Source of the DNA: Leptolyngbyaceae cyanobacterium M33_DOE_097
Lineage (GTDB): Bacteria; Cyanobacteriota; Cyanobacteriia; Leptolyngbyales; Leptolyngbyaceae
Direction of reading: 5' to 3'
DNA length: 48,014 nt
Assembly (NCBI GenBank): GCA_015296075.1
Contig: DVDV01000248.1
Coordinates: 1 to 48,014 of the forward strand
The notes under the pieces are model-generated. The model did no database searches and was not told the DNA's origin. It saw only the letters and a list, made by a program, of their open reading frames with translations. Both the position numbers and the translations under genes were made by a program. This document shows positions 3,219 to 39,535 of this stretch, piece after piece. Every line of letters begins with the position of its first letter. Within the stretch, counting starts at the first letter, position 1.

Positions 3219-4301
3219 ATGACTACCACGATTCAACGCACCGAGCGTGCCAATCTGTGGGAGCAGTTCTGCAACTGGGTGACCAGCACCGACAACCGCC
3301 TGTATATAGGCTGGTTCGGCGTCCTGATGATCCCCACTCTGTTGGCTGCTACCATCTGCTTCATTATCGCTTTCATCGCTGCTCCTCCTGTGGACATCGA
3401 TGGTATCCGTGAACCGGTTGCAGGTTCCTTAATGTATGGCAACAACATCATCTCTGGTGCGGTTGTGCCTTCTTCCAACGCCATCGGCTTGCACTTCTAC
3501 CCCATCTGGGAAGCGGCTTCTCTGGATGAGTGGCTGTACAACGGTGGTCCTTACCAGTTGGTTGTGCTGCACTTCCTGATTGGTGTGTTCTGCTACATGG
3601 GCCGTGAGTGGGAACTCTCCTATCGCCTGGGTATGCGTCCTTGGATCTGTGTTGCTTACTCTGCACCTGTGGCAGCAGCAACCGCAGTATTCTTGATCTA
3701 CCCCATCGGTCAAGGTTCTTTCTCTGACGGGATGCCTCTGGGTATCTCTGGTACGTTCAACTTCATGTTTGTGTTCCAGGCTGAGCACAACATTCTGATG
3801 CACCCCTTCCACATGTTAGGTGTGGCGGGTGTGTTCGGCGGTAGCTTGTTCTCCGCGATGCACGGTTCGTTGGTGACCTCCTCCTTGGTGCGTGAGACCA
3901 GCGAAGTGGAGTCTCAGAACTACGGCTACAAGTTTGGTCAAGAAGAAGAGACCTACAACATCGTTGCAGCGCACGGCTACTTCGGTCGTTTGATCTTCCA
4001 ATACGCATCGTTCAACAATTCTCGTTCCTTGCACTTCTTCTTGGGTGCATGGCCTGTGGTTGGCATCTGGTTCACGGCATTGGGTGTGAGCACGATGGCG
4101 TTCAACCTGAACGGTTTCAACTTCAACCAGTCGATCATCGACTCTCAGGGTCGTGTGGTTGGCACCTGGGCGGACATCCTGAACCGTGCGAACCTGGGTA
4201 TGGAAGTGATGCACGAGCGTAATGCTCACAACTTCCCGCTCGATTTGGCTGCTGGCGAAGCTGCACCTGTTGCACTCTCGGCTCCTCAAATCAACGGTTA
4301 A
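3219..4301 (+). CDS. psbA: Photosystem II reaction-centre protein D1, Glu130 form
   Basis: D1 of photosystem II, 360 residues with five transmembrane helices in the thylakoid membrane. It carries P680, the pheophytin and QB sites and most Mn4CaO5 ligands. Counting from the start, the key residues are all present: Tyr161 (YZ), Asp170, Glu189, His190, His198, His215, His252, Ser264, His272, His332, Glu333, His337, Asp342 and Ala344, the last being the site after which the 16-residue C-terminal extension is removed. Residue 130 is Glu (MGREWELSY), the variant of the high-light or stress type (D1:2), which hydrogen-bonds pheophytin more strongly than Gln130; residue 212 is Ser. It is monocistronic, with its own promoter and a strong terminator. 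HIP1 sites are absent from the gene. Confidence 0.99.
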
Positions 4302-4475: not shown

Positions 4476-4910
4476 ATGTTTGGGAAAAAGACTCCGCAAC
4501 CAAAATCCTTACCCACCTACATTGCTCAAAACAGCGAATTACAAGGGACGCTATTCGTTGAAAGCAACCTGCTAGTAGACGGTATTATTCACGGTACGGT
4601 TGAAGTCAGAGGCGATATGGAAATCTCTGCCAGCGGGCTTGTAGAAGGGCCAGAAGTGCGCGCCAAAAATTTAACAGTGCATGGAATTTTGAAGGCGCGG
4701 GTGATTGTAGAAGGGCGACTCACGCTGAGTAAGACAGCCCGGTTAGAAGGGGATGTGAATGCTAGTGCGCTGAGCGTTGAGCCAGGGGCATTCTACGTTG
4801 GTTATATTGAGACGGGGGAAGCAAAAACTGGGCTACCCGAAAGCCGTAACTATCCCGAATTAATGGGCACCACTCCAGACGTGCGTTTACCCGGCAGCGA
4901 TTTGCGCTAA
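4476..4910 (+). CDS. Bactofilin (polymer-forming cytoskeletal protein)
   Basis: A 144-residue protein of the bactofilin (DUF583) family. The core, about residues 18-115, is a right-handed beta-helix built from hydrophobic-glycine repeats: LQGTLFVESNLLVDGIIHG, then VEVRGDMEISASGLVEG, then VRAKNLTVHGILKARVIVEG, then LTLSKTARLEGDVNASALSV. Short, probably disordered tails flank it (MFGKKTPQPKSLPTYIAQ at the start, a Pro-rich C-terminus), as is typical. Bactofilins polymerise without nucleotide and scaffold cell-envelope processes such as stalk growth, polarity or wall synthesis; the role in this organism is unknown. The ATG at 4476 gives the standard short tail. It is separated from psbA by a terminator and stands alone. 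Confidence 0.9.
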   Translation: MFGKKTPQPKSLPTYIAQNSELQGTLFVESNLLVDGIIHGTVEVRGDMEISASGLVEGPEVRAKNLTVHGILKARVIVEGRLTLSKTARLEGDVNASALSVEPGAFYVGYIETGEAKTGLPESRNYPELMGTTPDVRLPGSDLR

Positions 4911-5115: not shown

Positions 5116-8058
5116 ATGCATTGGTTTATGGTGCTGAAACAGGTTTTTGGAGCGTTGCTCCTGTTTATCGTTTGTCCCCTTTTGGGTGGGTTACCGATTA
5201 TTGACTGGAGTACGCGGCTGCTCACAGGTAAGCGACTCCGGCAGCTCGGCACAGGGAATGTGAGTGTCTCAGCCGCCTTTTTTCATGGTGGAAAACCTGC
5301 TGGTATTGTGGCAGCTTTATCGGAGGCAGCGAAAGGCGCGATCGCGGTTTTACTGGCGCGATCGTTTTTTCCAAATGATCCCGTTTGGGAGCTGATCGCA
5401 CTCATCGCGCTAATTATGGGACGTTATTGGGTCGGGGCAGGGGCAGGCACAACCAATCTCATCTGGGGCTACACAGTACACGATCCGATCTCAGCCGGAT
5501 TCGTGTTTTTAATCGGAGGCATCGGGTTTACCATCCTACGCGAGCCGCAACTGGGACGGTTTAGCGTGTTGGTGTTATTTCCATTAATGACAGCACTTCG
5601 TCACTCCAGCGATCGCCCCTTAATTTTGGCGGCGATTGCCCTGGCTGCTCTGATGGCCTGGATTTATCAAAAAATTCCTGATGATTTAACGCTAGACTCA
5701 CAAGCAGCACAAGCAGGTTCTCGTAAGGTGTTTAAATTCTTTCGTGGCGATCGCGGCATTGCAACCCTAAATCAAGCTCTTACAGGTGCAAAAGTCGGTC
5801 AAAAAGCAGCTCGACTATCGGAGCTGAGGCAGTTGGGCTACCCCGTACCAGAGGGTTGGGTTTTGCTACCAGGAGATGACCCTACCCCTTTGATCGAGCA
5901 GCTTGAACCGTCTCCGGCGCATCCCTTTGTTGTGCGATCGTCCGCTTTAGACGAAGATGCCGAAGGGGGTTCTGCAGCAGGGATTTACGACAGCTTTTTA
6001 GATTTAACCAATCGAGATGCGCTGCGGTCAGCCATTAATCGTTGTTTTGAGTCTTACGACAATCCCCGTGCGATCGCTTATCGGCGCGATCGTCAATTGC
6101 GCGAGCAAGCGATGGCTGTGTTGATTCAGCCCCAAATTCGCAGTGTGTTCTCTGGCGTTGCATTTAGTCGTGACCCCATCACGCGCCAAGGTGAAGCCGT
6201 TCTGGTTGAAGCCCTACCCGGCAGTGCCAGCCGTGTTGTGTCGGGCCAGGTGACGCCTGAGCGCTATCGCCTTTGGATCAGAGAAGGCAGTGTAACGGCT
6301 ACAAGTGACTGGCGGTTGCCCGCCGACCTGAAGTTGCCAATGGAAGGCAGTGAAGGTGATGTGCCAGCAGCATTAATTCAGCAAGTCGCTTACTTGGCGC
6401 GGCAGATCGAGCAGCAATATCGTGGTGTGCCCCAAGATATTGAGTGGAGCTACGATGGGCAGCAGCTTTGGCTTCTCCAGGCGCGACCGATCACGACGCT
6501 GTTACCAATCTGGACGCGCAAAATTGCCGCAGAGGTGATTCCAGGGTTTATTCAACCGTTGACATGGTCAATTAACCGACCGCTGACCTGCGGTGTGTGG
6601 GGTGATCTGTTTACGATTGTGTTGGGTGAGCAATCGCAAGGTTTAGACTTTAAGGCTACGGCCACACTGCACCATTCAGTTGCCTACTTTAATGCGTCGC
6701 TACTGGGTGAAATCTTTTTGCGCATGGGGCTGCCACCCGACAGCCTGGAGTTTCTCACCCGTGGTGCAAAATTTAGTAAACCGCCGCTGCTCTCAACTGC
6801 CCGGAATGTGCCCGGACTGTTGCGCCTCGTGCAACGAGAATTTGCCTTAGAAAAAGACTTTGCCCGGGACGATCGCCGGCAATTCACTCCGTTTCTGGCG
6901 GAGTTGGCGCAAAAACCGGCTGACTCACTCAGTGCGATCGCCCTGGGGCAGCGAATTGACATGATTTTGAGTCAATTAAATAAGGCGACCTATTACAGCA
7001 TTTTGGCCCCGTTGAGTGCCGCGCTCCGCACAGCCATTTTTAAGGTGCCCGAACGCGCCATTGATGCGAGTGCGACGCCAGAAGTGGCTGTTGTGCGGTC
7101 GCTACAAAACCTGGCTCAGCAAGCAAAGGCTCACCTGCCGTCAGCGTTTGAGCAAGAGACTTTGACGCCCGACTTGGTTCATCGCTTGTTTAAGGAGCTG
7201 CAACAAACGACAGGTGGGCAAAGCATTGTGCAACAGTTTGACCAGATTTTGCAGCAATACGGTTATTTGAGTGAGGTCGGCACCGACATTGCTGTACCAA
7301 CCTGGCGCGAAGAACCGATGCCTGTTCAGACTTTATTTGTTCAGTTTTGCATTCAAGCGATCGCAGAACCGCCTGCGGCTACCAGCTCACCAGCGCCTCG
7401 CAAAGTTCAGAGCCGCTTTACATTAAAGGGCAGAGTCACAGAGGTTTATAGCCGCTTGCTAGCTGAGCTACGCTGGAGCTTTTTAGCCCTCGAACGGCAA
7501 TGGCTCGATCGCGGCTGGCTGCGGCAACCAGGCGATATCTTTTTGCTGGAGTATGACGAAGTGCGTCAGTTAATTGAGTCGGATGCCAGTGACGTAAACC
7601 CCTTTGAGGAGCGAATCGAACAACGGCGGCAGCAACTTGAGCGCGATCGCCAGGCCCAAACCATCCCCTATTTGGTGTATGGCAACGCACCACCCATGCT
7701 GAAAACGACCATTTCTCGTGCGGCGGTGCAGCAAAAAATTCAGGGCATCGCTGCCAGCCCTGGTTTGATTGAGGGTGAAGTTAAAGTGGCTCGCAGCTTG
7801 ACCGACGCCGCTCACGTCAATGCCCAAACAATTTTGGTTGTGCCCTATACGGATTCCGGCTGGGCTGCGATTCTAGCGCGAGTCGGTGGCCTCATATCAG
7901 AAGTGGGCGGGCAACTGTCGCATGGGGCGATCGTGGCACGCGAGTATCAAATTCCAGCCGTGATGGATATTCCTAATGCGACGCAACTGTTTCACGATGG
8001 GCAACGGGTGCGACTCGATGGAGAGACAGGCGTGATTGAAGTGCTAGCAGCAGAATAA
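5116..8058 (+). CDS. PlsY-like membrane domain fused to PEP-synthase/PPDK-like enzyme
   Basis: A 980-residue two-part protein. Residues 1-190 are a multi-span membrane region resembling the acyl-phosphate:glycerol-3-phosphate acyltransferase PlsY: the first PlsY motif is recognisable as LGTGNVSVSAAFFHGGKPAG followed by AAKG, but the second (GHxFPVFxxFKGGKG in PlsY) is replaced by MGRYWVGAGAGTTN, so acyltransferase activity is doubtful. From about 225 to 460 comes a pyruvate-phosphate-dikinase-type ATP-binding module (GQKAARLSELRQLGYPVPEG, FVVRSSALDEDAEGGSAAG, VFSGVAFSRDP, WLLQARPIT). The C-terminal 100 residues form the swivelling phosphohistidine domain with GGQLSHGAIVAREYQIPA, His936 being the predicted phosphorylated residue. 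The PEP/pyruvate TIM-barrel domain of true PEP synthase is not apparent; the central 470-860 region is different, as in rifampin-phosphotransferase-like enzymes. Substrate unknown; the membrane part suggests a lipid-linked or membrane-associated acceptor (inference). HIP1 sites occur in it. Confidence 0.8.
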   Translation: MHWFMVLKQVFGALLLFIVCPLLGGLPIIDWSTRLLTGKRLRQLGTGNVSVSAAFFHGGKPAGIVAALSEAAKGAIAVLLARSFFPNDPVWELIALIALIMGRYWVGAGAGTTNLIWGYTVHDPISAGFVFLIGGIGFTILREPQLGRFSVLVLFPLMTALRHSSDRPLILAAIALAALMAWIYQKIPDDLTLDSQAAQAGSRKVFKFFRGDRGIATLNQALTGAKVGQKAARLSELRQLGYPVPEGWVLLPGDDPTPLIEQLEPSPAHPFVVRSSALDEDAEGGSAAGIYDSFLDLTNRDALRSAINRCFESYDNPRAIAYRRDRQLREQAMAVLIQPQIRSVFSGVAFSRDPITRQGEAVLVEALPGSASRVVSGQVTPERYRLWIREGSVTATSDWRLPADLKLPMEGSEGDVPAALIQQVAYLARQIEQQYRGVPQDIEWSYDGQQLWLLQARPITTLLPIWTRKIAAEVIPGFIQPLTWSINRPLTCGVWGDLFTIVLGEQSQGLDFKATATLHHSVAYFNASLLGEIFLRMGLPPDSLEFLTRGAKFSKPPLLSTARNVPGLLRLVQREFALEKDFARDDRRQFTPFLAELAQKPADSLSAIALGQRIDMILSQLNKATYYSILAPLSAALRTAIFKVPERAIDASATPEVAVVRSLQNLAQQAKAHLPSAFEQETLTPDLVHRLFKELQQTTGGQSIVQQFDQILQQYGYLSEVGTDIAVPTWREEPMPVQTLFVQFCIQAIAEPPAATSSPAPRKVQSRFTLKGRVTEVYSRLLAELRWSFLALERQWLDRGWLRQPGDIFLLEYDEVRQLIESDASDVNPFEERIEQRRQQLERDRQAQTIPYLVYGNAPPMLKTTISRAAVQQKIQGIAASPGLIEGEVKVARSLTDAAHVNAQTILVVPYTDSGWAAILARVGGLISEVGGQLSHGAIVAREYQIPAVMDIPNATQLFHDGQRVRLDGETGVIEVLAAE

Positions 8059-8179
8059 GCCACGCAATTTGTCTGGCAGAAAGGGCGATCGCGCTCCGAT
8101 TTTTCCGTATTCTCCCTTGTTGTCTTTCAATTCCTCATTCCTACTGCCACAATAGGCGGTGAAGCCTTGGATTTCTCTT

Positions 8180-8440
8180 ATGCCTGACCCTCGTCTCTAC
8201 GAAAGTGAACATTACGTTGTGCTGGAACCTGATCAGCCAGAGCAGTTTTTCACGCGCGATGAGTTACGTGCCAAGCTAGAAAGCATTTTGAATCCTCGGC
8301 AAGACGACCTGCCCAGAGAGTTACAACGCATTGCCGCCGTAACCGACCAGGCTAACTATTTGATTGACAACTCCTGTGAGCTTGACCTTGCACCTGGCGA
8401 GTCAATGCAGTGGTATGTCGTGCGCCTGGAGAAGAAATAG
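8180..8440 (+). CDS. CRR7-like (chlororespiratory reduction 7) protein
   Basis: A small soluble protein of 86 residues matching the cyanobacterial/plant CRR7 family by its conserved core: HYVVLEPDQPEQFFTRDEL near the start and SCELDLAPGESMQWYVVRLE at the end. In chloroplasts CRR7 is needed for assembly of the NDH-1 complex that drives cyclic electron flow; the role of cyanobacterial homologues is less clear. I prefer the ATG at 8180 because MPDPRLYESEHYVVLEP corresponds to the family N-terminus. An in-frame GTG at 8159 would add seven residues and is the alternative. No strong ribosome-binding site supports either. It converges on the porin gene. Confidence 0.75.
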   Translation: MPDPRLYESEHYVVLEPDQPEQFFTRDELRAKLESILNPRQDDLPRELQRIAAVTDQANYLIDNSCELDLAPGESMQWYVVRLEKK

Positions 8441-8514: not shown

Positions 8515-10161
8515 TTAAAAGGTGAACGTGGTGCGGAGGACACCAACATACTGGGTATCGTTGCGGCTGTTGTTTTCTGGGTTAAACACAACCCAAAAAC
8601 CGGGGGTAATGGCGATGAAATCATTAAGCTGCAAGCGGTAGAACACTTCTAAGTGATAGGCAGTATCTCGGTCTTCTTGCACATCGCTGTTGCTGATGCG
8701 GGGGGGAATGCCAATCAAAATTCCGGGTAGGTAGCCACGCCCACCGACATCAGGGAAGGTTAGGCCGATCGCACCATACCAAATGCTGGCATCATCGCCT
8801 TCATCGACAGAAGTTAGAATGGTGCCGCCCGTCCCATCAGAAAGCGAACTCAACCCTGATGTGACCGCATTCGCTGTGATGTAGCCACCAAAGGCATGAA
8901 TCTGGAAGTTGGGCGCGACCCGGACAAACCCCGACAAACTAAAGAGATTGGCTTCTGTGGCGATCGCGTCACCAAAGGGCTTGTCGGCCAAAGCACTGCC
9001 TGTTCCTGCGGTTAAGGAAGTTGTGCCACCGGGGGCATAGTTGCGGGCATAGCCTAAACCAACACCGCCCCAATCCCAACGGTAGACAAGCTGCGCCATG
9101 GCCAAATAACCACCATTAAACAGACCTGCCTTATCAGACGGATCGTTTGGTGCAGCCGCCAAGTAACCCACCGTCAAAATTAAATCGTCTGTAAACTTCC
9201 AGTTCAGGGCAGCACCCCCACCCCCACGCCGGTAGAAGGGGTTGTACTCCCCAAAGCGAGAGGGAATGCCCAGACCATCATCGGCGATCGTGGGTGGTGT
9301 AACCGTGTCAGTAATATCGGTAAAGCCAATCCCCACTGGGCCTACGGTTGCCTCTAGCGTCTCTGTAATCGGGAATCGGTAGAGTAAATGGGGCACAAAG
9401 ACATCATTACCCAAATCATCGGCAAAGTTGAGCTGGGTCATGCCGGTGCCTGTCGCCGCCACAATCGAGCTAGAACCTGGCGCATTAAAGAAATTGCCAA
9501 ACTCTAGCCGAACTCGCAGAAAGTCGCGTCCTGAAAAGCTGCTCTCTAAGTTGAAGCGTGCCCGGTTTGCGAAGATCGTATTGGTCTCATCTGAGTCTCC
9601 ACCGACGCTGTTACCAAACGTATCGGTAATGGCGGTAATAACCTGAGCATTCAGCTTGGTTGTAGTTGAGAACTGCTGTCTTTCTAAAGTGGTTGCCCGG
9701 ACTTCGAGCGCATCAACCCTTCCCCTTAACGTGGCCAGCTCTACAGCAAACTCTGCTTGTAACTTTCTAAGCGCTTCCAGATCTTCTTTTTTGACAAAAT
9801 CTGCTGTGTTAGCCGCAATGAGTTCACTGATGCGATCGAGACAGGCATTGAGTCCGGCTGCAAACTCAAATCGGCTCAGCGATTGATTTCCCCGAAACGT
9901 TTGATCCGGGTAACCCACAATGCAACCATATCGCTCAACCAATGATTGCAATGCCTGAAATGCCCAGTCGGTAGGCCGAACATCTGATAGTTGCGAAACA
10001 GAAGTAACCTGAGACATTGAAGCAAGGTCGTTAAACTCGGCCTCAGTATCTTCTAGATAAGGTTGCTTTAGCGCAGGATTTGCTAACACAAATGGTTGCC
10101 AACAGCTAAGCAAAGCACTTATTACAGCGATTTTAAAAGTAAAGAAGAAATGTGTTTTCAT
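8515..10161 (-). CDS. SLH-domain OprB-type outer-membrane porin (iron uptake porin family)
   Basis: A 548-residue outer-membrane protein. An N-terminal signal peptide (about residues 1-28, ending LLSCWQPFVLA) is followed by a surface-layer-homology domain at about 60-115 (VRPTDWAFQALQSLVERYGC, YPDQTFRGNQSLSRFEFAAG), which anchors the protein to the periplasmic wall. A coiled coil follows at about 118-165 (LEALRKLQAEFAVELATLRG), and then a C-terminal OprB-like beta-barrel of alternating aromatic strands ending in phenylalanine (RTTFTF). This is the SomA/SomB architecture, the main porin class of cyanobacterial outer membranes; many members are annotated as iron-uptake porins because of work in Synechocystis. 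Passage of small ions and solutes is the family role. It could also let GlcNAc through for the PTS further right (speculative). It is monocistronic. Confidence 0.93.
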   Translation of the reverse strand: MKTHFFFTFKIAVISALLSCWQPFVLANPALKQPYLEDTEAEFNDLASMSQVTSVSQLSDVRPTDWAFQALQSLVERYGCIVGYPDQTFRGNQSLSRFEFAAGLNACLDRISELIAANTADFVKKEDLEALRKLQAEFAVELATLRGRVDALEVRATTLERQQFSTTTKLNAQVITAITDTFGNSVGGDSDETNTIFANRARFNLESSFSGRDFLRVRLEFGNFFNAPGSSSIVAATGTGMTQLNFADDLGNDVFVPHLLYRFPITETLEATVGPVGIGFTDITDTVTPPTIADDGLGIPSRFGEYNPFYRRGGGGAALNWKFTDDLILTVGYLAAAPNDPSDKAGLFNGGYLAMAQLVYRWDWGGVGLGYARNYAPGGTTSLTAGTGSALADKPFGDAIATEANLFSLSGFVRVAPNFQIHAFGGYITANAVTSGLSSLSDGTGGTILTSVDEGDDASIWYGAIGLTFPDVGGRGYLPGILIGIPPRISNSDVQEDRDTAYHLEVFYRLQLNDFIAITPGFWVVFNPENNSRNDTQYVGVLRTTFTF

Positions 10162-15942: not shown

Positions 15943-18504
15943 ATGACTCAAGCTCCTCCCGCATCGATCGTTCACACTAACAGAGTCCTACTCAAAGCCC
16001 CTTTATCTGGCTACCTTCTGCCGATTGAACAAGTACCCGATCCGGTTTTTGCCCAAAAAATGGTCGGGGATGGTATTTCGATTGATCCGACGAGTCAGAC
16101 TTTGGTTTCCCCCTGTGATGGGGAAGTGATTCAACTGCATCCTTCGCAACATGCCGTCACGATTAAAACAGCAGAAGGCTTAGAAGTGTTAATGCACCTT
16201 GGGTTAGATACCGTTACGCTGCGAGGAGAAGGTTTTACCCCAAGAGTCAAAGAAGGCGATCGCGTACGGAGTGGTGATCCATTAATTGATTTTGATGCTG
16301 ACTTTGTGGGAACTCACGCCCGCAGCCTGCTGACGCAGATCGTGATCACCAATGGCGATTTAGTGGCGAGCCTGACGCCTAACACCGGGTTTGTGAGCAG
16401 TGGGCAAGACGCGATTTTAGAGTTAACCCTGGCGAGTGAAAGCGTCGAAACAACTGTAACCGGAGGCGAACTGATTACCTCTGAAGCAATTGTGGTGCCG
16501 AATCCGACCGGGTTACATGCGCGTCCTGCGGCGGTTTTGGCGAGCCTTGCCAAAAAATATCAGGCTAAGATTCGGCTCAAGTATGGCGACCAAACCGCCA
16601 ATGTCCGCAGCGTCACCGGATTAATGGGCTTGCAGGTTGGTAATGGCGCAACGGTTTACCTCCAGGCAGAAGGCCCAGATGCCGCAACCGCGATCGCCCA
16701 CTTAAGCGAAGAACTCCGCGCCGGTCTAGGTGAGGAAGGCGCTAAACCTGTTGCCGCTCCCGCCAGCATTTCCCAATCAGAAGGTGCCAAACCTGCGCCA
16801 CGTCCCCGCTCTGAAGACCCCAACATTGTCCTGGGAGTGGCGGCTTCTCCGGGCGTTGCCGTTGGCACGATTAGTCGAGTCCGGCAGTTTGAGATTCAGG
16901 TTGAGGAGACTGGCGGCACGGCGAACGACGAGAAACGCAAGCTGGATCAGGCGATCGCTCAGGCAAAACTCGAAGTTGAAGCGTTACGAGCCAAAGTACA
17001 CGGGCAAGGAGATCCCAAAAAAGCCGCAATTTTTGCCGCGCACCAGGAGCTACTCGAAGATCCAGAATTGGTGGACACCAGTTACCGGGCGATCGATAAG
17101 GGCAAGAGTGCCGCCTTTGCCTGGAAGCAGACCTACAGTGCACAGGCAGAGGTGTTAGCCAAGTTGACCAATGCCTTACTGGCCGAACGGGCTAATGATC
17201 TGCGTGATGTTGGAGGTCGCGTCTTGCGGATTCTGACAGGAGTGACCACTGAAGTTGCGACCTACCCCGCAAATACGATTCTGATTGCCGAAGACCTCAC
17301 TCCGTCTGACATGGCTACCCTCGATCGCACCCAGGTGATCGGCTTTTGTACGGTTGCAGGAGGTGCCACCTCCCATGTCTCGATTCTGGCTCGCTCGATG
17401 GATTTGCCTGCGATCGCGGGGACGGAGCCACGTGTGCTAGAACTGACCGATGGCACTGCCGCAATTCTGGATGGCACGAAAGGCAAGCTGCGCCTCAACC
17501 CGTCAGTTGAAGCAATGGAGCAAACCCGTCAGCGCCAAGCTCGGTTGAAAGAACGTCGGGCTGTTGAGCTTGCCACTAAGGACGAACCCGCCATTACTAA
17601 AGACGGTCACCGGATTGAGGTTGCTGCCAATATTGGCAGTCTGGAAGATGCTCAAAAAGGCATCCAGATGGGGGCTGAAGGCGTTGGCTTGCTGCGTACC
17701 GAGTTTGTTTTTATGGAAGCAAGCAGCGCCCCCACCGAAGCCGAACAAACCCAAATCTACAGTGATATTGCCCAGGCATTGGGCGATCGCCCCCTCATCA
17801 TTCGCACCCTGGATGTGGGCGGTGACAAACCGCTACCCTACATGCCTATGCCCCACGAAGAAAACCCATTTTTGGGCGAACGGGGTATTCGTATGTGCTT
17901 TGACCGCCCTGAGTTGATGCGCACTCAGTTTCGCGCGATTTTGCGATCGGCGCAGACGGGCAACGTGCGGGTCATGTTCCCGATGATTGTGCGGACTGAA
18001 GAGATCCAGATGGCGAAAGCTGTGATGGAAGAAGAACGGCAACAGTTAGGCGTGCTACCGATTCCCATCGGCATCATGATTGAGGTGCCTGGTGCGGCTG
18101 TGATTGCTGATCAGCTGATTCGCGAAGTCGATTTCTTCTCAATTGGCACAAACGATCTGACCCAGTACACCCTCGCGATGGATCGGGGCCATCCCAAGCT
18201 TGCACCTTATATCGATGCCCTTAATCCCAGTGTGCTGGCGCTAATTGGCATGACGGCGCGGGCGGCTAACAATGCTGGCAAATGGGCCGGGGTCTGTGGT
18301 GGCGTCGCCAGTGATCCGCAAGCGGTGCCCCTGCTGATTGGTCTAGGCATTAAAGAACTGAGTTGTAGCATTCCGGCGATTCCCAGTGTGAAAGCCCAGA
18401 TTCGAGCATTAACGCTCGCCGAGTGTCAGCGCCTGGCCGAACAAGCCCTGCAGCAACCAACGGCAGAAGCCGTGCGGAATTTAGTGCCGTTAGAGGAGGA
18501 GTAG
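15943..18504 (+). CDS. nagF: Multidomain PTS phosphoryl carrier EIIA-HPr-EI
   Basis: An 853-residue fusion of three phosphotransferase-system parts, cytosolic. Residues 15-165 are an EIIA of the glucose/GlcNAc family, with the two conserved histidines His70 and His85 (EVLMHLGLDTVTL; His85 is the phosphorylated one). Residues 180-265 are HPr with active His192 in PNPTGLHARPAAV. Residues 295-850 are enzyme I: phospho-His478 in GGATSHVSILARSMDLPAIAG, then the PEP-binding barrel with MGAEGVGLLRTEFVFM, FFSIGTNDLTQYTL and catalytic Cys785 in GVCGGVASDP. PEP phosphate would pass EI to HPr to EIIA to EIIB of NagE. The same order is found in NagF of several proteobacteria. It is followed after 59 bases by nagE. 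HIP1 sites lie inside the gene, so it is adapted to this genome. Confidence 0.93.
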   Translation: MTQAPPASIVHTNRVLLKAPLSGYLLPIEQVPDPVFAQKMVGDGISIDPTSQTLVSPCDGEVIQLHPSQHAVTIKTAEGLEVLMHLGLDTVTLRGEGFTPRVKEGDRVRSGDPLIDFDADFVGTHARSLLTQIVITNGDLVASLTPNTGFVSSGQDAILELTLASESVETTVTGGELITSEAIVVPNPTGLHARPAAVLASLAKKYQAKIRLKYGDQTANVRSVTGLMGLQVGNGATVYLQAEGPDAATAIAHLSEELRAGLGEEGAKPVAAPASISQSEGAKPAPRPRSEDPNIVLGVAASPGVAVGTISRVRQFEIQVEETGGTANDEKRKLDQAIAQAKLEVEALRAKVHGQGDPKKAAIFAAHQELLEDPELVDTSYRAIDKGKSAAFAWKQTYSAQAEVLAKLTNALLAERANDLRDVGGRVLRILTGVTTEVATYPANTILIAEDLTPSDMATLDRTQVIGFCTVAGGATSHVSILARSMDLPAIAGTEPRVLELTDGTAAILDGTKGKLRLNPSVEAMEQTRQRQARLKERRAVELATKDEPAITKDGHRIEVAANIGSLEDAQKGIQMGAEGVGLLRTEFVFMEASSAPTEAEQTQIYSDIAQALGDRPLIIRTLDVGGDKPLPYMPMPHEENPFLGERGIRMCFDRPELMRTQFRAILRSAQTGNVRVMFPMIVRTEEIQMAKAVMEEERQQLGVLPIPIGIMIEVPGAAVIADQLIREVDFFSIGTNDLTQYTLAMDRGHPKLAPYIDALNPSVLALIGMTARAANNAGKWAGVCGGVASDPQAVPLLIGLGIKELSCSIPAIPSVKAQIRALTLAECQRLAEQALQQPTAEAVRNLVPLEEE

Positions 18505-18563
18505 GAGAAAGCGAATCTCTACCCCTACTCTCTCCCTTACAAACAACACAGGAAACACGCTCT

Positions 18564-20489
18564 ATGTGGAAAAAAGCCTTCGCACTCTTGCAACAGATGG
18601 GGAAAGCCCTAATGTTGCCTGTCTCGATCTTGCCGATCGCCGGTTTGTTACTGGGTTTAGGGAGTGCTCGTCTGATCGAGATCCAAAAAATCACGGCTGG
18701 CACTCTCACCAAAGAAACGTTTGGCTGGTTGCCTGAGTGGTTAGCAGACATCATGAAAGCCTCTGGGGATGCCATTTTTGGTGCGTTGCCCCTAATTTTT
18801 GCGATCGCCGTTGCGATTGCCTACACCGGCAATGATGGCGTTTCGGCGTTAGCGGCAACTGTTGGTTTTATGGTGTTTATCGCCGCACTGGGTGCTGTCG
18901 GTATGGCGCGTGGATTTGTCACCGAAAGCCAGATCCAAGACTTAGCCGCGCAGGGGCAACCCACCCCTGATGTGTGGATGAAGCCCGTTTTAGGGATCAC
19001 GACGCTCGATACTGGCGTTTTTGGTGGCTTAGTGATGGGTTGCATTGCGGCTTACCTGTTCAACAAATACTTTCGGATTAAGCTGCCCCAATACCTGGGT
19101 TTCTTTGCAGGTAAGCGCTTTGTGCCAATTGTGACGGCACTCGTTGCGATCGCGGTCGCCCTGCTGATGAGTGTGATCTGGCCGCCGATTGGTGGTTTTA
19201 TCAACCGGGCGGCAAATACAGCGGCGACGGGGGGCAATGTTCCGGTTGCGGCAGGCATCTATGGCATTGTTGAGCGATCGCTGCTGCCCTTTGGTTTGCA
19301 CCACATTTGGAACGTGCCCTTCTTTTTTCAGATTGGCTCGTTTACCGACTCGGCAACAGGTAATATTGTGCGCGGTGACATTAACCGTTTCTTTGCGGGT
19401 GACCCCACGGCTGGCATTTTAGGGGGAGCTTACTGGTTCAAAATGTTTGGTCTGCCTGCTGCGTCGATCGCCATGTGGCAGGCCGCGAAACCCAAAAATC
19501 GCAAACTGGCAGGCGGTATTCTCCTCTCCGCCGGATTCACCTCGTTTTTGACGGGCATTACAGAACCGCTGGAATTCTCGTTTTTGTTTATTGCGCCTGT
19601 CCTGTATATGATTCACGCAATCATGGCAGGAATTTGCGACTTTGTGTTTGCCTCGCTTGGTGGTCGCATGGGTTTCACTTTCTCCCAAGGGGCGATCGAC
19701 TTTATCTTGTTCAACCAGCTCGGCAGTTGGAATGGGCAGCGGGGTGAGGTCTGGAAGCTGATTATTGGGGGTGGCATTGTTGCGGCGGCGATCTACTACT
19801 TTGTGTTTCGCTTTGCGATCCGCATCTTTGATCTCAAAACACCGGGTCGCGAAGATGAAGACGTGACGCCAGAAGGGGAAGCAGCGGTGGCAACCGTTGG
19901 GGCCGGAGGCATGCCGCTAGAACTGGTGCGAGCCTTTGGGGGACGCAGCAACATCGCGGTGTTAGATGCCTGCATCACTCGCCTGCGCATTACGGTGCAA
20001 GACAAGAGCAAGGTCAATAAGGCAAAACTCAAAGCACTGGGTGCTTCCGGTGTTCTCGAAGTCGGTGATAGCGTGCAGGCAATTTTTGGCCCGCGATCAG
20101 AAAACCTGAAGACCGACATGATCGAGTACCTCAAAACGGCTGGGCCAGAAGCCGATATGCTCGAAGCAGTGCCGGTGAGTCCAGCGAAGGCGATCGCCGC
20201 GGACAGTCCAGTCACTCCTGTAATTGCCCAAGATCCAAACGCTGATCGCAAAGCAGCCGACATTACAGCTGCTTTGGGGGGTAAGCAAAACATTCGGCGG
20301 GTAGATGCGATCGCCCTGACCCGCTTACGGGTTGAAGTGGCTGACAGCTCAGCCGTCAATGACTCTGCGTTGCAAGCGGTTGGTGTGCAGGGCATTTTGC
20401 GTCTAGAAGGTGGCGTGTTGCACCTGTTGATGGGGCTAGGGGCTGACCAATATGCTGATGAAATCAAAAAACAATTGACCACTGCTTAA
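18564..20489 (+). CDS. nagE: PTS N-acetylglucosamine permease EIICB with a second, Cys-less EIIB domain
   Basis: A 641-residue inner-membrane transporter that takes up and phosphorylates its sugar. The EIIC part (about 1-425) starts MWKKAFALLQQMGKALMLPV and carries the family signatures LPFGLHHIWNVPFF (241-254) and GITEPLEF (331-338), typical of the glucose/GlcNAc superfamily. The first EIIB domain (about 448-527) has the phosphocysteine Cys470 in LDACITRLRITV. A second EIIB-like domain (about 562-637) aligns well but reads VDAIALTRLRVEV, so the cysteine is absent. EIIA is supplied by NagF. GlcNAc is inferred as substrate from nagB and nagA nearby and family resemblance. The ATG at 18564 follows AGGAAA by eight bases; an in-frame extension further upstream inside nagF is rejected. 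Confidence 0.92.
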   Translation: MWKKAFALLQQMGKALMLPVSILPIAGLLLGLGSARLIEIQKITAGTLTKETFGWLPEWLADIMKASGDAIFGALPLIFAIAVAIAYTGNDGVSALAATVGFMVFIAALGAVGMARGFVTESQIQDLAAQGQPTPDVWMKPVLGITTLDTGVFGGLVMGCIAAYLFNKYFRIKLPQYLGFFAGKRFVPIVTALVAIAVALLMSVIWPPIGGFINRAANTAATGGNVPVAAGIYGIVERSLLPFGLHHIWNVPFFFQIGSFTDSATGNIVRGDINRFFAGDPTAGILGGAYWFKMFGLPAASIAMWQAAKPKNRKLAGGILLSAGFTSFLTGITEPLEFSFLFIAPVLYMIHAIMAGICDFVFASLGGRMGFTFSQGAIDFILFNQLGSWNGQRGEVWKLIIGGGIVAAAIYYFVFRFAIRIFDLKTPGREDEDVTPEGEAAVATVGAGGMPLELVRAFGGRSNIAVLDACITRLRITVQDKSKVNKAKLKALGASGVLEVGDSVQAIFGPRSENLKTDMIEYLKTAGPEADMLEAVPVSPAKAIAADSPVTPVIAQDPNADRKAADITAALGGKQNIRRVDAIALTRLRVEVADSSAVNDSALQAVGVQGILRLEGGVLHLLMGLGADQYADEIKKQLTTA

Positions 20490-21073
20490 GTTCAATCCAC
20501 TTTTAGGAACGAAAATTGAATAACAATTCCCTGCATGGCAAATGATTCGCGCAAGCGGCCTAGCCTGACGAGTCGCTTTTTGTAAGGAGTGCAAGATGTG
20601 GTTTAAGCCTGCGCAGCAGGGTTCCCACCCCACCCTTAACCCCCTTTTGTCAAACACTGGAACTAGTAACACCTTCCGCAGGGGAGGCGAGGGGAGGCGG
20701 CCCGGCCCCTCGCGGGGGTTTGGGGGCGTGCCCCCAAGGGTTGCTGGCTCGGAATCGCTGAATCTAAGAGAAAGCTTTTTGATTGAAGCTAAGCGAAGAT
20801 TTGGGGGCGGCGGAGCCGCGAATCGGGGGACTTCCCCCCGCAAGGTGGTGCGGGTGGGTGTTGAATGGGTAGCTAGTCAAGCGGTACGGGTTGCAAGTTT
20901 GACGCTTTGATCGTTGATCGAAGGTACGGGTGGGGTGAGGCGGAGGTTGCATGGGCGATCGCCGTTTGGGCTGAGAATTTATTTTCTGCCTGCCGCCTTT
21001 CTCAAACCCTCTCTGAGAGAGAACCGATAGATGCCAAAATGGGCGTATCCAAAAATGGTTGGGAGCAGGTTGG
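20490..21073. other. Spacer with GC-rich hairpins and an interspersed repeat
   Basis: About 580 bases between nagE and the methyltransferase gene. It contains G/C tracts, including the palindrome GGGGGCGTGCCCCC around 20722-20735, and one copy of the interspersed repeat described at 20744-20962. An open frame at 20596-20910 is an artefact of the repeat. The spacer probably ends the nagFE transcript, but no single textbook terminator stands out. Confidence 0.4.
20744..20962 (+). repeat. Interspersed repeat, copy A (inverted with respect to copy B)
   Basis: This 219-base stretch matches the reverse complement of 26636-26860 over its whole length, with scattered substitutions and small gaps. 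The best-conserved blocks are TAAGCGAAGATTTGGGGGCG (around 20790), GTGTTGAATGG followed by TAGCTAG (around 20858), and GTGAGGCGGAGGTTGCA (around 20936) ending in a HIP1 site. The internal GGCGGCGGAGCCGC is palindromic. No transposase is coded inside. Confidence 0.75.
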
Positions 21074-21820
21074 GTGACGAAATTGAGTAGCGTGCGAGAT
21101 AAAATTGGCGCGATCGCACACAATCCTCAGAGCTTGGCGCGCTTACTGCGTCGCCTTTATCTGCGACTGGTCACGACTCCTTTTCGGCAAGACAGCACCG
21201 AAGACCCTTACTACCAACTGTTTCAGACTTTTCTCACAATGGTGCGCGATCGCCCGCAGCCAAACGTGCTGGAGTTGGGTGCCCGCAATGTCACTAATAA
21301 CTCACCTCGCAAGCTTTTCACCAATGCGGCGCAATACGTTGGGTTTGATATTCATGCGGGTGAAGGGGTCGATGTGGTGGGTGATATTCACCAGCTCTCA
21401 ACCTACTTTCCGGCGAATACCTTTGACGTGGTCTATTGCATCTCGGTGTTCGAGCATTTGGCGATGCCGTGGAAAGCAATTCTCGAAATTAACCGCGTTA
21501 TGAAAGACGGTGGTTTGCTGTTTATCTCGACCCATCCAACCTTTCCAAAGCACGAGTTACCCTGGGACTTTTGGCGCTTTTCAGAAGCGGCGTTTGGGGT
21601 TCTGCTCAATCCTGTGACGGGCTTTGAGCTAATTGGCTGTGTTGAAGGGTTGCCCTGCTCGATTGTGCCGCTTGTGCGCGATCGCTGGATGAAAGGCATG
21701 TCAGTTGAACCTGCGAATTTGGGTGTTGCCGTTCTCGCCAAAAAAATTGCCAACTCTGATCCGCGCCTGTGTTGGGATGTCACAACTGCTGAAGTGACAA
21801 CGGGCATCTACCCCACCTGA
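21074..21820 (+). CDS. Class I SAM-dependent methyltransferase
   Basis: A protein of about 248 residues with a methyltransferase type 11 core. Motif I is VLELGARNVTNN; then VGFDIHAGEGVDVVGDI (acidic residue that binds the SAM ribose), FDVVYCISVFEHLAMPWKAI (motif post-II/IV) and EINRVMKDGGLLFISTHPT (motif of strand five). The loop after motif I is ARNVTN instead of the glycine-rich GxGxG, a feature of some glycan- and lipopolysaccharide-linked methyltransferases. The likely start is the GTG at 21074, nine bases after GGAG; a TTG at 21059 is an alternative. It lies between nagE and nagB on the same strand, but nothing in it points to GlcNAc metabolism; substrate unknown. Confidence 0.82.
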   Translation: MTKLSSVRDKIGAIAHNPQSLARLLRRLYLRLVTTPFRQDSTEDPYYQLFQTFLTMVRDRPQPNVLELGARNVTNNSPRKLFTNAAQYVGFDIHAGEGVDVVGDIHQLSTYFPANTFDVVYCISVFEHLAMPWKAILEINRVMKDGGLLFISTHPTFPKHELPWDFWRFSEAAFGVLLNPVTGFELIGCVEGLPCSIVPLVRDRWMKGMSVEPANLGVAVLAKKIANSDPRLCWDVTTAEVTTGIYPT

Positions 21821-21953
21821 GTTTGCTACACCTGATTGGCTGAAAGTGCGCCTGAGCAGCGATCTCAGGTCAGACAAAGCGCAACCATGCACCGAGCCGA
21901 AGTTTCTTATATAGTGTTTGTGCCCCGTTACAGATGCAGGGAGAAAGGGACGC

Positions 21954-22748
21954 ATGCGATTAGTCATTCCCGAAGTCAGTGTTGGCGAATGGGCCGCGCA
22001 GTATGTCTTGCAGCGTGTTCAACAGTTTGCGCCAACCGCCGATCGCCCTTTTGTGCTAGGTCTACCCACTGGCAGCACTCCACTGGGTATGTACAAGAAG
22101 CTGATTGAGTTTCATCAACTGGGGAAGCTGAACTTTCAACACGTCGTCACCTTCAACATGGATGAGTACGTGGGCTTGCCGGAAGACCATCCCGAAAGCT
22201 ACCACAACTACATGTTTCGCCACTTCTTCAACTACATCAACATTCCCCGTGAGCAAATCCACATTTTGAATGGCAATGCCCCTGACCTCGCTGTTGAATG
22301 CGATCGCTACGAAGAACAGATTCGTCAGTTTGGTGGGGTGGATCTATTTATCGGTGGGGTGGGGGTGGATGGCCACATTGCTTTTAACGAACCTGGTTCT
22401 TCCTTAGTCTCTCGTACGCGCGTAAAAACCCTGATGGACAGTACTCGCTTTGCCAATTCTCGTTTCTTTGAAAATGATATGGAAAATGTACCGAAACTGG
22501 CGCTGACCGTGGGTGTCGGCACTGTCATGGATGCGAATGAAGTGATGATCTTAGCGCAGGGGTATGCCAAGGCATTAGCGGTTTATCACGCGATCGAAGG
22601 CGGCATTAACCAGATGTGGACAATTTCAGCATTGCAGATGCATCCTCGCGCCATGCTAGTCTGCGACGATAGCGCCACCTCAGAGCTAAAAGTCAAAACC
22701 GTTCGCTACTTTAAGCAGATGCAAGACCATCTCAGCCTGTTCTATTGA
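21954..22748 (+). CDS. nagB: Glucosamine-6-phosphate deaminase
   Basis: NagB, 264 residues, converts glucosamine-6-phosphate to fructose-6-phosphate and ammonium in the cytosol, the last step of GlcNAc catabolism. Catalytic residues are in place: Asp70 in FNMDEYVGL (general base), and Asp139, His141 and Glu146 in [16 protein letters not shown]. The phosphate-binding [13 protein letters not shown] is at 35-47. The protein starts [18 protein letters not shown] at the ATG at 21954, matching E. coli NagB; a longer in-frame start is rejected. AGGGAGA lies just upstream. Lys/Arg residues of the E. coli allosteric site are not assessed. The nagA frame begins at once after it. Confidence 0.96.
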
Positions 22749-22801
22749 GCTTTACGGATCCGCGATCGCCCTCCCCCATTGTTTTCAAAGGCAACACCAT
22801 C

Positions 22802-23953
22802 ATGTACGCGCTCACTAATGCAACCCTGTTTACCAGTGCCGCAGAGCTACTCGGTCATGCAATTATCATCGAAGGCGATCGCATCATTGATGTGGTGCCC
22901 CAAACAACCCTGCCAGAGTACATCCCCACCATTGATCTGAAGAATTGTATTGTTGCGCCTGGCTTTATTGACTTGCAACTCAACGGTTGCGGTGGTGTGA
23001 TGTTTAACGACACGATCGCCGCCGACACGCTCGACACCATGCACCGCACCAACCTGAGCAGTGGCACCACCAGCTTTTTGCCGACCTTGATCACAGCACC
23101 GGATGAGGACATGCTGGCCGCGATGCAAGTCGTCACAGCCTATCGTCAGCACAGTCCCCACAACGTTTTGGGCTTGCACCTCGAAGGCCCCTATCTAAAT
23201 CCGCGCCGCAAAGGGATTCATAACGGCAACTATGTGCGCCAACCGGATGCCGCTATGCTGCAAAAAATCGCTCATGCGGGTCGAGACACCGTGAAACTGC
23301 TTACCCTGGCTCCCGAAGTGACCCAGCTGGATGACATTCGTTTGCTCGCTGATGCTGGCATTGTTGTTTCCGCTGGACATACGGATGCCGACTATGAAAC
23401 CGCGATCGCCAGTTTTGAGGCAGGCGTTAGCATGGCAACCCATCTGTTTAACGCGATGTCACCCTGGCAGGGGCGCAGTCCGGGGATGGTGGGTGCTGTG
23501 TTTGAGGATGAAAACGTCTACGCAGGCATCATTGCCGATGGGCATCACGTTCACCTCGCCTCGGTGGGGTTGGCCCACAAAATTAAGCGCGATCGCTTGA
23601 TTCTCGTAACCGATGCCACTCCTGCGGCGGGTGCAACCATCGCGTCATTTAGGATTGGTGGGCAAGAAGTGTTTTGTCAGGCAGGCAAGTGCGTCTCGGC
23701 AGATGGAACCCTGGGTGGGTCGGCGCTCACGATGATCGAGGCGGTTCAGAACTGTGTGGAAATTATTGGCATTCCTCTGGCGGAGGTCTTGCGCATGGCC
23801 TCGTTTTATCCGGCGCAGGCGATCGCGGTGGATGATGAACTCGGCAGAATTGTGCCCGGTTATATCGCCAATCTCGTTGTGCTGAGCGCGAATTTAGCAG
23901 TGGTGGGTGTGGTTGATCGCGGCACCTGGTACGACTTTGTTTCAGAGTCTTAA
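22802..23953 (+). CDS. nagA: N-acetylglucosamine-6-phosphate deacetylase
   Basis: NagA, 383 residues, removes the acetyl group from GlcNAc-6-phosphate, giving glucosamine-6-phosphate and acetate. It is an amidohydrolase TIM-barrel enzyme. Diagnostic stretches: APGFIDLQLNGCGGVMFND, GLHLEGPYLNPRRKGIHN (metal-ligand Glu), VVSAGHTDADY and ATHLFNAMSPWQGR (metal-ligand histidines), IADGHHVHLASV, and the catalytic Asp in LVTDATPAAG. The start MYALTNATLFTS at the ATG 22802 mirrors E. coli NagA. It follows nagB by 53 bases on the same strand and is almost certainly co-transcribed with it. HIP1 octamers lie inside. Confidence 0.96.
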   Translation: MYALTNATLFTSAAELLGHAIIIEGDRIIDVVPQTTLPEYIPTIDLKNCIVAPGFIDLQLNGCGGVMFNDTIAADTLDTMHRTNLSSGTTSFLPTLITAPDEDMLAAMQVVTAYRQHSPHNVLGLHLEGPYLNPRRKGIHNGNYVRQPDAAMLQKIAHAGRDTVKLLTLAPEVTQLDDIRLLADAGIVVSAGHTDADYETAIASFEAGVSMATHLFNAMSPWQGRSPGMVGAVFEDENVYAGIIADGHHVHLASVGLAHKIKRDRLILVTDATPAAGATIASFRIGGQEVFCQAGKCVSADGTLGGSALTMIEAVQNCVEIIGIPLAEVLRMASFYPAQAIAVDDELGRIVPGYIANLVVLSANLAVVGVVDRGTWYDFVSES

Positions 23954-39306: not shown

Positions 39307-39527
39307 AATTTCCATTGTTTACTCAAGTTGTCTTAACCGAAGACATTCCTGCCTTGAACTTAAAGAAAGGCAGTATTGGCACAATCGTCGAGTACTATCC
39401 AATGCCAGAAACCCAGGAAGATGGTTATAGCTTAGAAGGGTTAGTACCGCTCGACACGGTTGAAGTTTCTGCTTCTCAAATTGCAATGATCGCCCCGATC
39501 TCATCCACTGCTAAACCGACCAATTGA
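39303..39527 (+). CDS. DUF4926 domain protein
   Basis: A 74-residue beta-rich protein: MKFPLFTQVVLTEDIPALNL, KKGSIGTIVEYYPMPETQED, GYSLEGLVPLDTVEVSASQI. This is the DUF4926 pattern, an SH3-like small barrel. The gene overlaps the DUF6883 stop by four bases, and such pairs are frequent in cyanobacteria, so an immunity or antitoxin role for the DUF6883 partner is a reasonable but unproven reading. The stop lies nine bases before the ATG of the caspase gene, so all four genes are tightly packed. Confidence 0.75.
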   Translation: MKFPLFTQVVLTEDIPALNLKKGSIGTIVEYYPMPETQEDGYSLEGLVPLDTVEVSASQIAMIAPISSTAKPTN

Positions 39528-39535
39528 TACACTGT

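Follow-up and report, generated by a model that had tools for sequence, protein, structure and literature searches.

Two groups of described enzymes stand closest to the gene that is treated here. One is PlsY, the acyl-phosphate-dependent acyltransferase of glycerol-3-phosphate, whose fold is, to our knowledge, known from one reaction only. The other group is formed by the dikinases of the rifampin phosphotransferase (RPH) type, in which a catalytic histidine is phosphorylated from ATP and the phosphate is passed on to a compound in an acceptor domain (available parts of PMC4844700 and PMC12167813; the same parts are meant wherever these articles are cited below). The gene at positions 5116–8058 of a 48,014-nucleotide stretch from Leptolyngbyaceae cyanobacterium M33_DOE_097 (contig DVDV01000248.1; the whole stretch is called the window) encodes a protein that joins a domain of the first kind to a module of the second. 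This fusion is neither PlsY nor RPH; it has the fold of the former and the working plan of the latter. It is somewhat more probable than not (about 0.55) that it is a membrane-bound RPH-type small-molecule dikinase, which converts ATP to AMP and inorganic phosphate (Pi) and acts on a hydrophobic, membrane-soluble compound bound by the PlsY-like domain. The reading draws on the modelled fold, the domain order, the retained kinase residues, the loss and replacement of the substrate residues of PlsY, selection and linkage; the dikinase reaction, the hydrophobic substrate and the role of the PlsY-like domain are what we infer.

The open reading frame (ORF) starts with ATG and runs through 980 amino acids plus a stop codon with zero internal stops. 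Conservation was scored in an alignment of 55 fusion proteins, made up of 43 non-redundant proteins out of 96 extracted and 12 of 15 further stretches; the three stretches omitted were the PlsY region of the same genome, a short copy and a frameshifted gene. The features of the gene are as follows.

5116–8058, plus strand: whole gene, PlsY-like/RPH-type dikinase fusion (ORF, Pfam, AlphaFold2 model)
5116–5685, plus strand: PlsY-fold membrane domain, residues 1–190 (Pfam PF02660, model, matches in the PDB)
5248–5292, plus strand: family-specific motif 1, residues 45–59, consensus GTGNxSVSAAFYHGG, which replaces the PlsY motif SGSTGATNVLR
5419–5469, plus strand: family-specific motif 2, residues 102–118, consensus GRYWxGKGAGTTNVVWG, which replaces the PlsY motif GH...GGK
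5749–6501, plus strand: ATP-grasp domain, residues 212–462 (PPDK_N match, alignment to 5hv6)
5803–5805, plus strand: Lys230, equivalent of the catalytic Lys22 of the Listeria enzyme RPH-Lm (conservation, profile alignment)
6502–7725, plus strand: helical acceptor domain, residues 463–870, counterpart of the rifampin-binding domain of RPH (model, structural and profile alignment)
7426–7428, plus strand: Lys771, aligned with the acceptor-site Arg666 of RPH-Lm (K in 54 of 55, profile alignment)
7726–8046, plus strand: C-terminal phosphohistidine swivel domain, residues 871–977 (PEP-utilizers match; aligned within RPH 685–866)
7921–7923, plus strand: His936, predicted phosphohistidine (H in 54 of 55; aligned with the His825 region of RPH-Lm)

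Three Pfam families were matched above their cut-offs, namely G3P_acyltransf (PF02660; residues 20–184, 62.0 bits against a cut-off of 24.1), PPDK_N (residues 268–462, 152.1 against 27) and PEP-utilizers (residues 903–972, 76.4 against 23.1). A preliminary description of this locus had proposed a fusion of a PlsY-like membrane domain with a phosphohistidine enzyme, which the intact frame, the Pfam domains and the many relatives bear out; the ATP-binding module and the module around His936 that it named correspond to the second and third of these matches.

The N-terminal domain was compared with solved structures through a model of residues 1–200 (mean predicted local distance difference test score, pLDDT, of 91.7). 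Foldseek matched this model to PlsY with template modelling (TM) scores of 0.70–0.75 over 181–183 columns, and the remaining matches had E values above 1. With VIA-align, the PDB entries 5xj5, 5xj6, 5xj7 and 5xj8 were found at Z 18.7–19.2 (179–184 residues aligned; root-mean-square deviation, rmsd, of 2.4–2.9 Å), and the next match at Z 6.0. Compared by profile with 29 canonical PlsY proteins of cyanobacteria, the family agreed with a probability of 96.8 (E 2.5e-10). The resemblance of residues 1–190 to PlsY, for which the preliminary description had proposed just such a structural comparison, therefore stands, with PlsY as the sole strong match. Like PlsY (PDB 5xj5–5xj9), the fusion has the seven-helix membrane fold and the PF02660 signature, and beyond the substrate clamp it retains positions of Gly and Lys.

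The substrate residues themselves tell a different story. In aaPlsY, glycerol-3-phosphate is bound by Ser35, Arg45, Lys104, Asn180 and His177, while the phosphate of the acyl phosphate is gripped by the backbone amides of the loop 104–107 and by His92 (available part of PMC5700162). Unlike PlsY, the fusion lacks motif 3 and the glycerol-3-phosphate clamp: T46 stands in the place of Ser35, Y56 in that of Arg45 (Phe in the window), G111 in that of Lys104, Y184 in that of His177 and I187 in that of Asn180. His92 is replaced by Arg, and the carbonyl-contact residues Thr41 and Ala40 of PlsY are replaced by S52 and V51. The HRxN-like pattern was seen in 1 of the 55 fusions versus 27 of the 29 canonical PlsY proteins. 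The residue comparison with PlsY used 39 of the 55 fusion rows and all but one of the 30 canonical loci that were tried; the other 16 rows include most of those that diverge, so that the 39-row figures describe the more favourable set. Counted over all 55 rows, T46 is kept in 52, Y56 in 50, R103 in 55, G111 in 54, T113 in 53, N114 in 54, W117 in 54 and G118 in 55, and each of G45, T46, N48, H57, E70, R103, G111, T113 and N114 is present in 50 to 55. Residue 108, an A in the window that might be taken for decay, is occupied by K or R in 46 of the 55 relatives. The invariant residues of the fusion concentrate in both substrate loops of PlsY, and a glycine-rich GAGTTN loop is conserved where the loop 104–107 of PlsY sits. 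Judged from sequence and model, the N-terminal domain descends from PlsY, with the fold and the glycine-rich loop kept and the glycerol-3-phosphate clamp lost. The earlier claim that the second glycine/lysine motif had been lost was right about the lysine, but it missed the loss of motif 3 and of the arginine of motif 1, as well as the near-invariant replacements.

The term "degenerate", which the preliminary description used for this domain, is not supported by the selection that acts on it. The mean pairwise identity over the 55 rows was 0.562 for the PlsY-like domain, 0.572 for the ATP-grasp domain, 0.530 for the acceptor domain, 0.642 for the swivel domain and 0.444 for the linker. The median ratio of non-synonymous to synonymous substitution rates (dN/dS) over 13 pairs was 0.136, 0.128, 0.139 and 0.061 for the four domains in the same order, and 0.210 for the linker (finite in 9 of the 13 pairs). 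By these values, the PlsY-like domain is constrained on a par with the ATP-grasp and acceptor domains and less than the swivel domain. It is remodelled, with near-invariant new residues, and is tied to the dikinase in the sampled genomes that carry it. A decaying N-terminal domain is ruled out by this selection together with the invariant replacement residues.

For the remainder of the protein, the closest described enzyme is RPH-Lm. Its first half reaction involves Lys22, Arg117, Thr136 and His825 and the second Arg666 and Glu667, of which the acceptor-site Glu667 is essential; Glu297 is a further RPH residue that was used for comparison (PMC4844700). The AlphaFold2 model of the whole fusion (mean pLDDT 91.6) has RPH-Lm as its top structural match. 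VIA-align placed the whole model on 5hv2 at Z 36.0 over 648 residues with an rmsd of 22 Å, which is attributed to domain movement, and placed residues 213–855 on residues 3–746 of 5hv1, that is, on the ATP-grasp plus the rifampin-binding domain. The ATP-grasp domain matched the ATP-binding domain of RPH in 5hv6 at Z 21.0 (224 aligned, 2.6 Å), and HpeI was a further structural match (9goj, Z 17.8). When seven proteins of the RPH, PigC and related kinds were compared with a profile of the 55 fusions, the alignment spanned 724 columns (E 6.8e-83) and was weak around residues 505–650. In the model, residues 481–870 are mainly helices with few strands and do not form a beta/alpha barrel. The phosphoenolpyruvate (PEP)-binding barrel (PF02896) was not found in the fusion by a Pfam scan at E 1, and the identical library found it in two other genes, one at locus L121 and one at 15943–18504 of the window. 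The absence of a PEP barrel, which had been anticipated, thus agrees with a segment 470–860 that is modelled as helical and is aligned through to the rifampin-binding domain.

The residues of the first half reaction are all present in the fusion. The equivalents of Lys22, Arg117 and Thr136 are K230 (54 of 55), R274 (55 of 55) and T or S293 (54 of 55), and those of Glu297 and His825 are E443 (55 of 55) and H936 (54 of 55), the latter in the context GGQLSHGA; K230, R274, E443 and H936 occur all together in 54 of the 55 proteins. The second half reaction is represented differently, with K771 (54 of 55) for Arg666 and G772 (47 of 55) for Glu667. At the level of sequence, the half that loads the phosphate looks intact, and that of the acceptor looks unlike its counterpart in RPH.

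Like RPH-Lm (PDB 5fbs, 5hv1), the fusion has its domains in the order ATP-grasp, acceptor domain and C-terminal His swivel, keeps the kinase residues and has no PEP barrel. It differs from RPH-Lm in its N-terminal membrane domain and in the Lys and Gly at the acceptor positions, and it reaches 227.9 bits in the NCBIfam model RIF_Ptrans_rph, whose curated cut-off is 999. The scores for PEP_synth (159.3 bits, cut-off 739.75), PigC (208.1, cut-off 1300) and RedH (199.6, cut-off 1350) also lie below the curated values. With the prodiginine ligases PigC and RedH, the fusion has in common the module order and homology along the dikinase part, although these ligases lack the PlsY-like domain. The two-component phenol kinases HpeHI, CreHI and PpsAB have the same dikinase chemistry modules (ATP-grasp, acceptor and swivel), but they consist of two polypeptides, lack a PlsY-like domain and act on phenolic substrates (PMC12167813). 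PEP synthase and pyruvate phosphate dikinase have homologous ATP-grasp and swivel domains, with a central His and a C-terminal PEP barrel, whereas the fusion has a C-terminal His and no barrel. Of the two identities offered by the preliminary description, PEP synthase or rifampin phosphotransferase, the layout of the second survives; the first is ruled out by the missing barrel, the PEP_synth score and the helical segment 481–870. Homology across the whole dikinase module and the kept kinase residues place the fusion among the broad RPH-type small-molecule dikinases.

In the mechanism that we favour, the ATP-grasp domain would pyrophosphorylate His936 with release of AMP, and the gamma phosphate would leave as Pi. 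The phosphate that remains would then be carried by the swivel domain to the helical acceptor domain and handed over there to a hydrophobic, membrane-soluble compound. Within the membrane, the PlsY-derived domain would most likely serve to bind, present or process this lipid-like compound or its phosphate. The membrane-tethered phosphotransfer enzyme implied by the preliminary description is supported by this combination of a predicted PlsY-fold domain and an RPH-type dikinase.

Several observations weigh against this reading. Glu667 and Lys670 of RPH are aligned with G772 and T775, and the acceptor chemistry must therefore differ from that of RPH. The hydrophobic nature of the substrate is inferred from the membrane fold alone. 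No neighbouring gene was found to be conserved over the whole range of the fusion, the conserved neighbours being limited to lineages. Four further rows of the 55 combine altered PlsY-like motifs with intact kinase residues, which mildly argues against a strict coupling of the two halves. Finally, three relatives from one genus (G083, G058 and G211, of which the first and third carry the genus label of G058) have D or G for K230 and Q for H936; their motif 1 has been deleted or can no longer be recognised, and the loop of motif 2 is missing, but R103 and the long frame persist. For the pair G083 and G058, dN/dS was 0.066 (one pair); the more distant pairs were saturated, at 0.146 or not computable. 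Some role without phosphotransfer must survive at least in this divergent genus, because an ORF of about 900 amino acids that lacks the phosphohistidine is under purifying selection. The joint loss of the kinase residues and the PlsY-like motifs is one evolutionary event, and it also supports the view that the two halves work together. In this genus, the version that lacks the phosphohistidine and the PlsY-like motif 1 is kept as an ORF of 900–913 amino acids (L122:5458–8157, minus strand; L177; L178).

An acyl-phosphate relay is the first alternative to be considered. Here, the dikinase would turn a carboxylate, such as a free fatty acid, into an acyl phosphate, and the PlsY-like domain would use it to acylate an acceptor other than glycerol-3-phosphate; a single polypeptide would unite the separate tasks of FakAB or PlsX and of PlsY. 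The relay is conceivable because the glycerol-3-phosphate clamp was lost while the glycine-rich phosphate loop was retained. At the acyl-phosphate phosphate site, the GAGTTN loop is kept and His92 has become a fixed Arg, and the concentration of invariant residues in both substrate loops would suit such a reaction as well. However, the carbonyl contacts Thr41 and Ala40 are changed too, and we know of no acyl-phosphate activity in the RPH-type family. For these two reasons, the relay is ranked below the membrane-bound dikinase and is regarded as an unlikely candidate. Those RPH-type enzymes whose products are known act as kinases of alcohols or phenols (RPH, HpeHI; PMC4844700, PMC12167813) or as ligases (PigC). 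The more specific picture of a self-contained, ATP-driven lipid acylation machine, in which dikinase-made acyl phosphate is passed to a re-specified PlsY domain and on to a cyanobacterial acceptor other than glycerol-3-phosphate, is slightly less likely again. If true, it would be a third route to acyl phosphate beside PlsX and FakAB and, as far as we know, the first enzyme of the PlsY fold that uses another acceptor.

The PlsY-like domain could also be a mere membrane anchor, with an RPH-like kinase or ligase doing all the chemistry on a soluble metabolite. The residues needed to bind glycerol-3-phosphate are indeed replaced, and the kinase half by itself has the complete RPH layout, but near-invariant polar loops are not expected of a bare anchor. 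Selection on the domain equals that on the ATP-grasp domain, and in one lineage the loops were lost along with the kinase residues. A simple anchor is therefore improbable.

PigC acts as a ligase, and the fusion might likewise be a phosphohistidine ligase of the PigC/RedH kind, coupling two building blocks at the membrane without a stable phosphate ester. The NCBIfam matches include the PigC and RedH models, and PigC members could be aligned along the dikinase module, but the scores are far from both curated cut-offs, and a reading of the ORFs in the window gave no recognisable biosynthetic cluster around the gene, which makes this alternative hard to credit. A structural or regulatory, pseudoenzyme-like protein for which catalysis is not essential would account for the three genomes that lack the phosphohistidine and Lys230 under continued purifying selection, but it is very improbable in view of the four kinase residues present in 54 of the 55 proteins.

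Returning to the membrane-bound dikinase, the linkage of its two halves was followed across the phylum. The survey of cyanobacteria that had been suggested showed that, at E 1e-40, the full-length query matches 106 genomes out of the 386 sampled, which belong to 62 of the 143 genera. When the modified PlsY-like domain was used by itself as a profile, 106 of the 386 genomes were matched as well (107 matches), and this search yielded no convincing free-standing copy of the domain among them. The frame is long and fused except in G074 (two contig ends), in G215 and in a second copy in G170. The gene of G215 resembles two genes split at the domain border, reads as a frameshift and is not used as evidence. 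The second copy in G170 (L124:5332–7104, minus strand; 591 amino acids) lacks the whole acceptor domain, keeps the ATP-grasp domain and the kinase His, and has altered PlsY-like motifs; it is one case only. In a contig collection (genome_contigs), 219 of 250 pattern matches encode relatives, of which 80 were kept: 79 from cyanobacteria and one from a Tatlockia metagenome-assembled genome, as judged from titles. Homologues thus occur across nearly the full length in many independently sequenced cyanobacteria, with a typical size of roughly 950–1000 residues, and such relatives rule out an assembly chimera or a chance fusion. Plasmid searches turned up no dikinases other than distant ones, with less than 60 percent identity throughout the 316 records, and no PlsY-like domain.

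The genome also encodes a separate, canonical PlsY on another contig (L121:5260–5937, plus strand), which scores 176.3 bits where the fusion scores 67.4. With this canonical enzyme present elsewhere, the ordinary PlsY reaction does not depend on the fusion. A PF02660 match is present in each of 58 related genomes, and most of them have both kinds; G387 and G412, which are 82 and 84 percent complete, have the weaker, fusion-type match only. A stand-in for the housekeeping PlsY is ruled out by the strong separate PlsY in the same genome and in nearly all of the 58 relatives. Some 2 kb separate the canonical PlsY from a gene for another PEP enzyme (L121:8039–10357, minus strand), which has ATP-grasp, His and PEP-barrel domains; this closeness is probably due to chance.

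Roughly one in four of the genomes sampled in the phylum keeps the fusion, which is under strong selection, yet it is undescribed in the literature searched. In that literature, largely without subscription papers, nothing was found on the fusion, on PlsY or glycerol-3-phosphate acyltransferase in combination with enzymes of the PEP type in cyanobacteria, or on rifampin phosphotransferase with dikinase and cyanobacteria. The gene matches the glycerol-3-phosphate acyltransferase family PF02660 despite the loss of the residues for that reaction, and in it the PlsY fold appears re-specified in a fixed manner and tied to a phosphohistidine kinase. The fusion points to an undescribed step in the metabolism of a lipid or prenyl-type metabolite in cyanobacteria.

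Three kinds of neighbouring genes recur in relatives of the fusion, and none of them points to the substrate. A cupin gene (Cupin_2 match) lies directly downstream in 26 loci, which belong to Nostocales and relatives as judged from titles; in 21 of the 26, its start overlaps the stop of the fusion, a sign of translational coupling. One example of this small gene is found at L083:10901–11245 (plus strand). A GDSL-type hydrolase is encoded divergently upstream in 31 loci, and a bactofilin upstream in seven Leptolyngbya-type loci, including the window. In the genome studied here, the query with the GDSL-type hydrolase gave zero matches and that with the cupin weak matches only.

Within the window, the bactofilin gene is located at 4476–4910, and the gene at 3219–4301 further upstream is presumably psbA. 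Downstream of the fusion follow a CRR7 gene (8159–8440) and an iron-uptake-type porin (8515–10161, minus strand). Anti-phage defence was rejected after zero PADLOC matches. A sugar phosphotransferase system is uncommon in cyanobacteria, and positions 15943–23953 (plus strand) hold in a row, according to Pfam, an EIIA-HPr-EI fusion, an EIIC-EIIB protein, a glucosamine-6-phosphate isomerase and a NagA-type amidohydrolase, which together look like a complete N-acetylglucosamine phosphotransferase operon. At 39524–41089 (plus strand), Pfam identifies a GUN4-like domain fused to a caspase domain.

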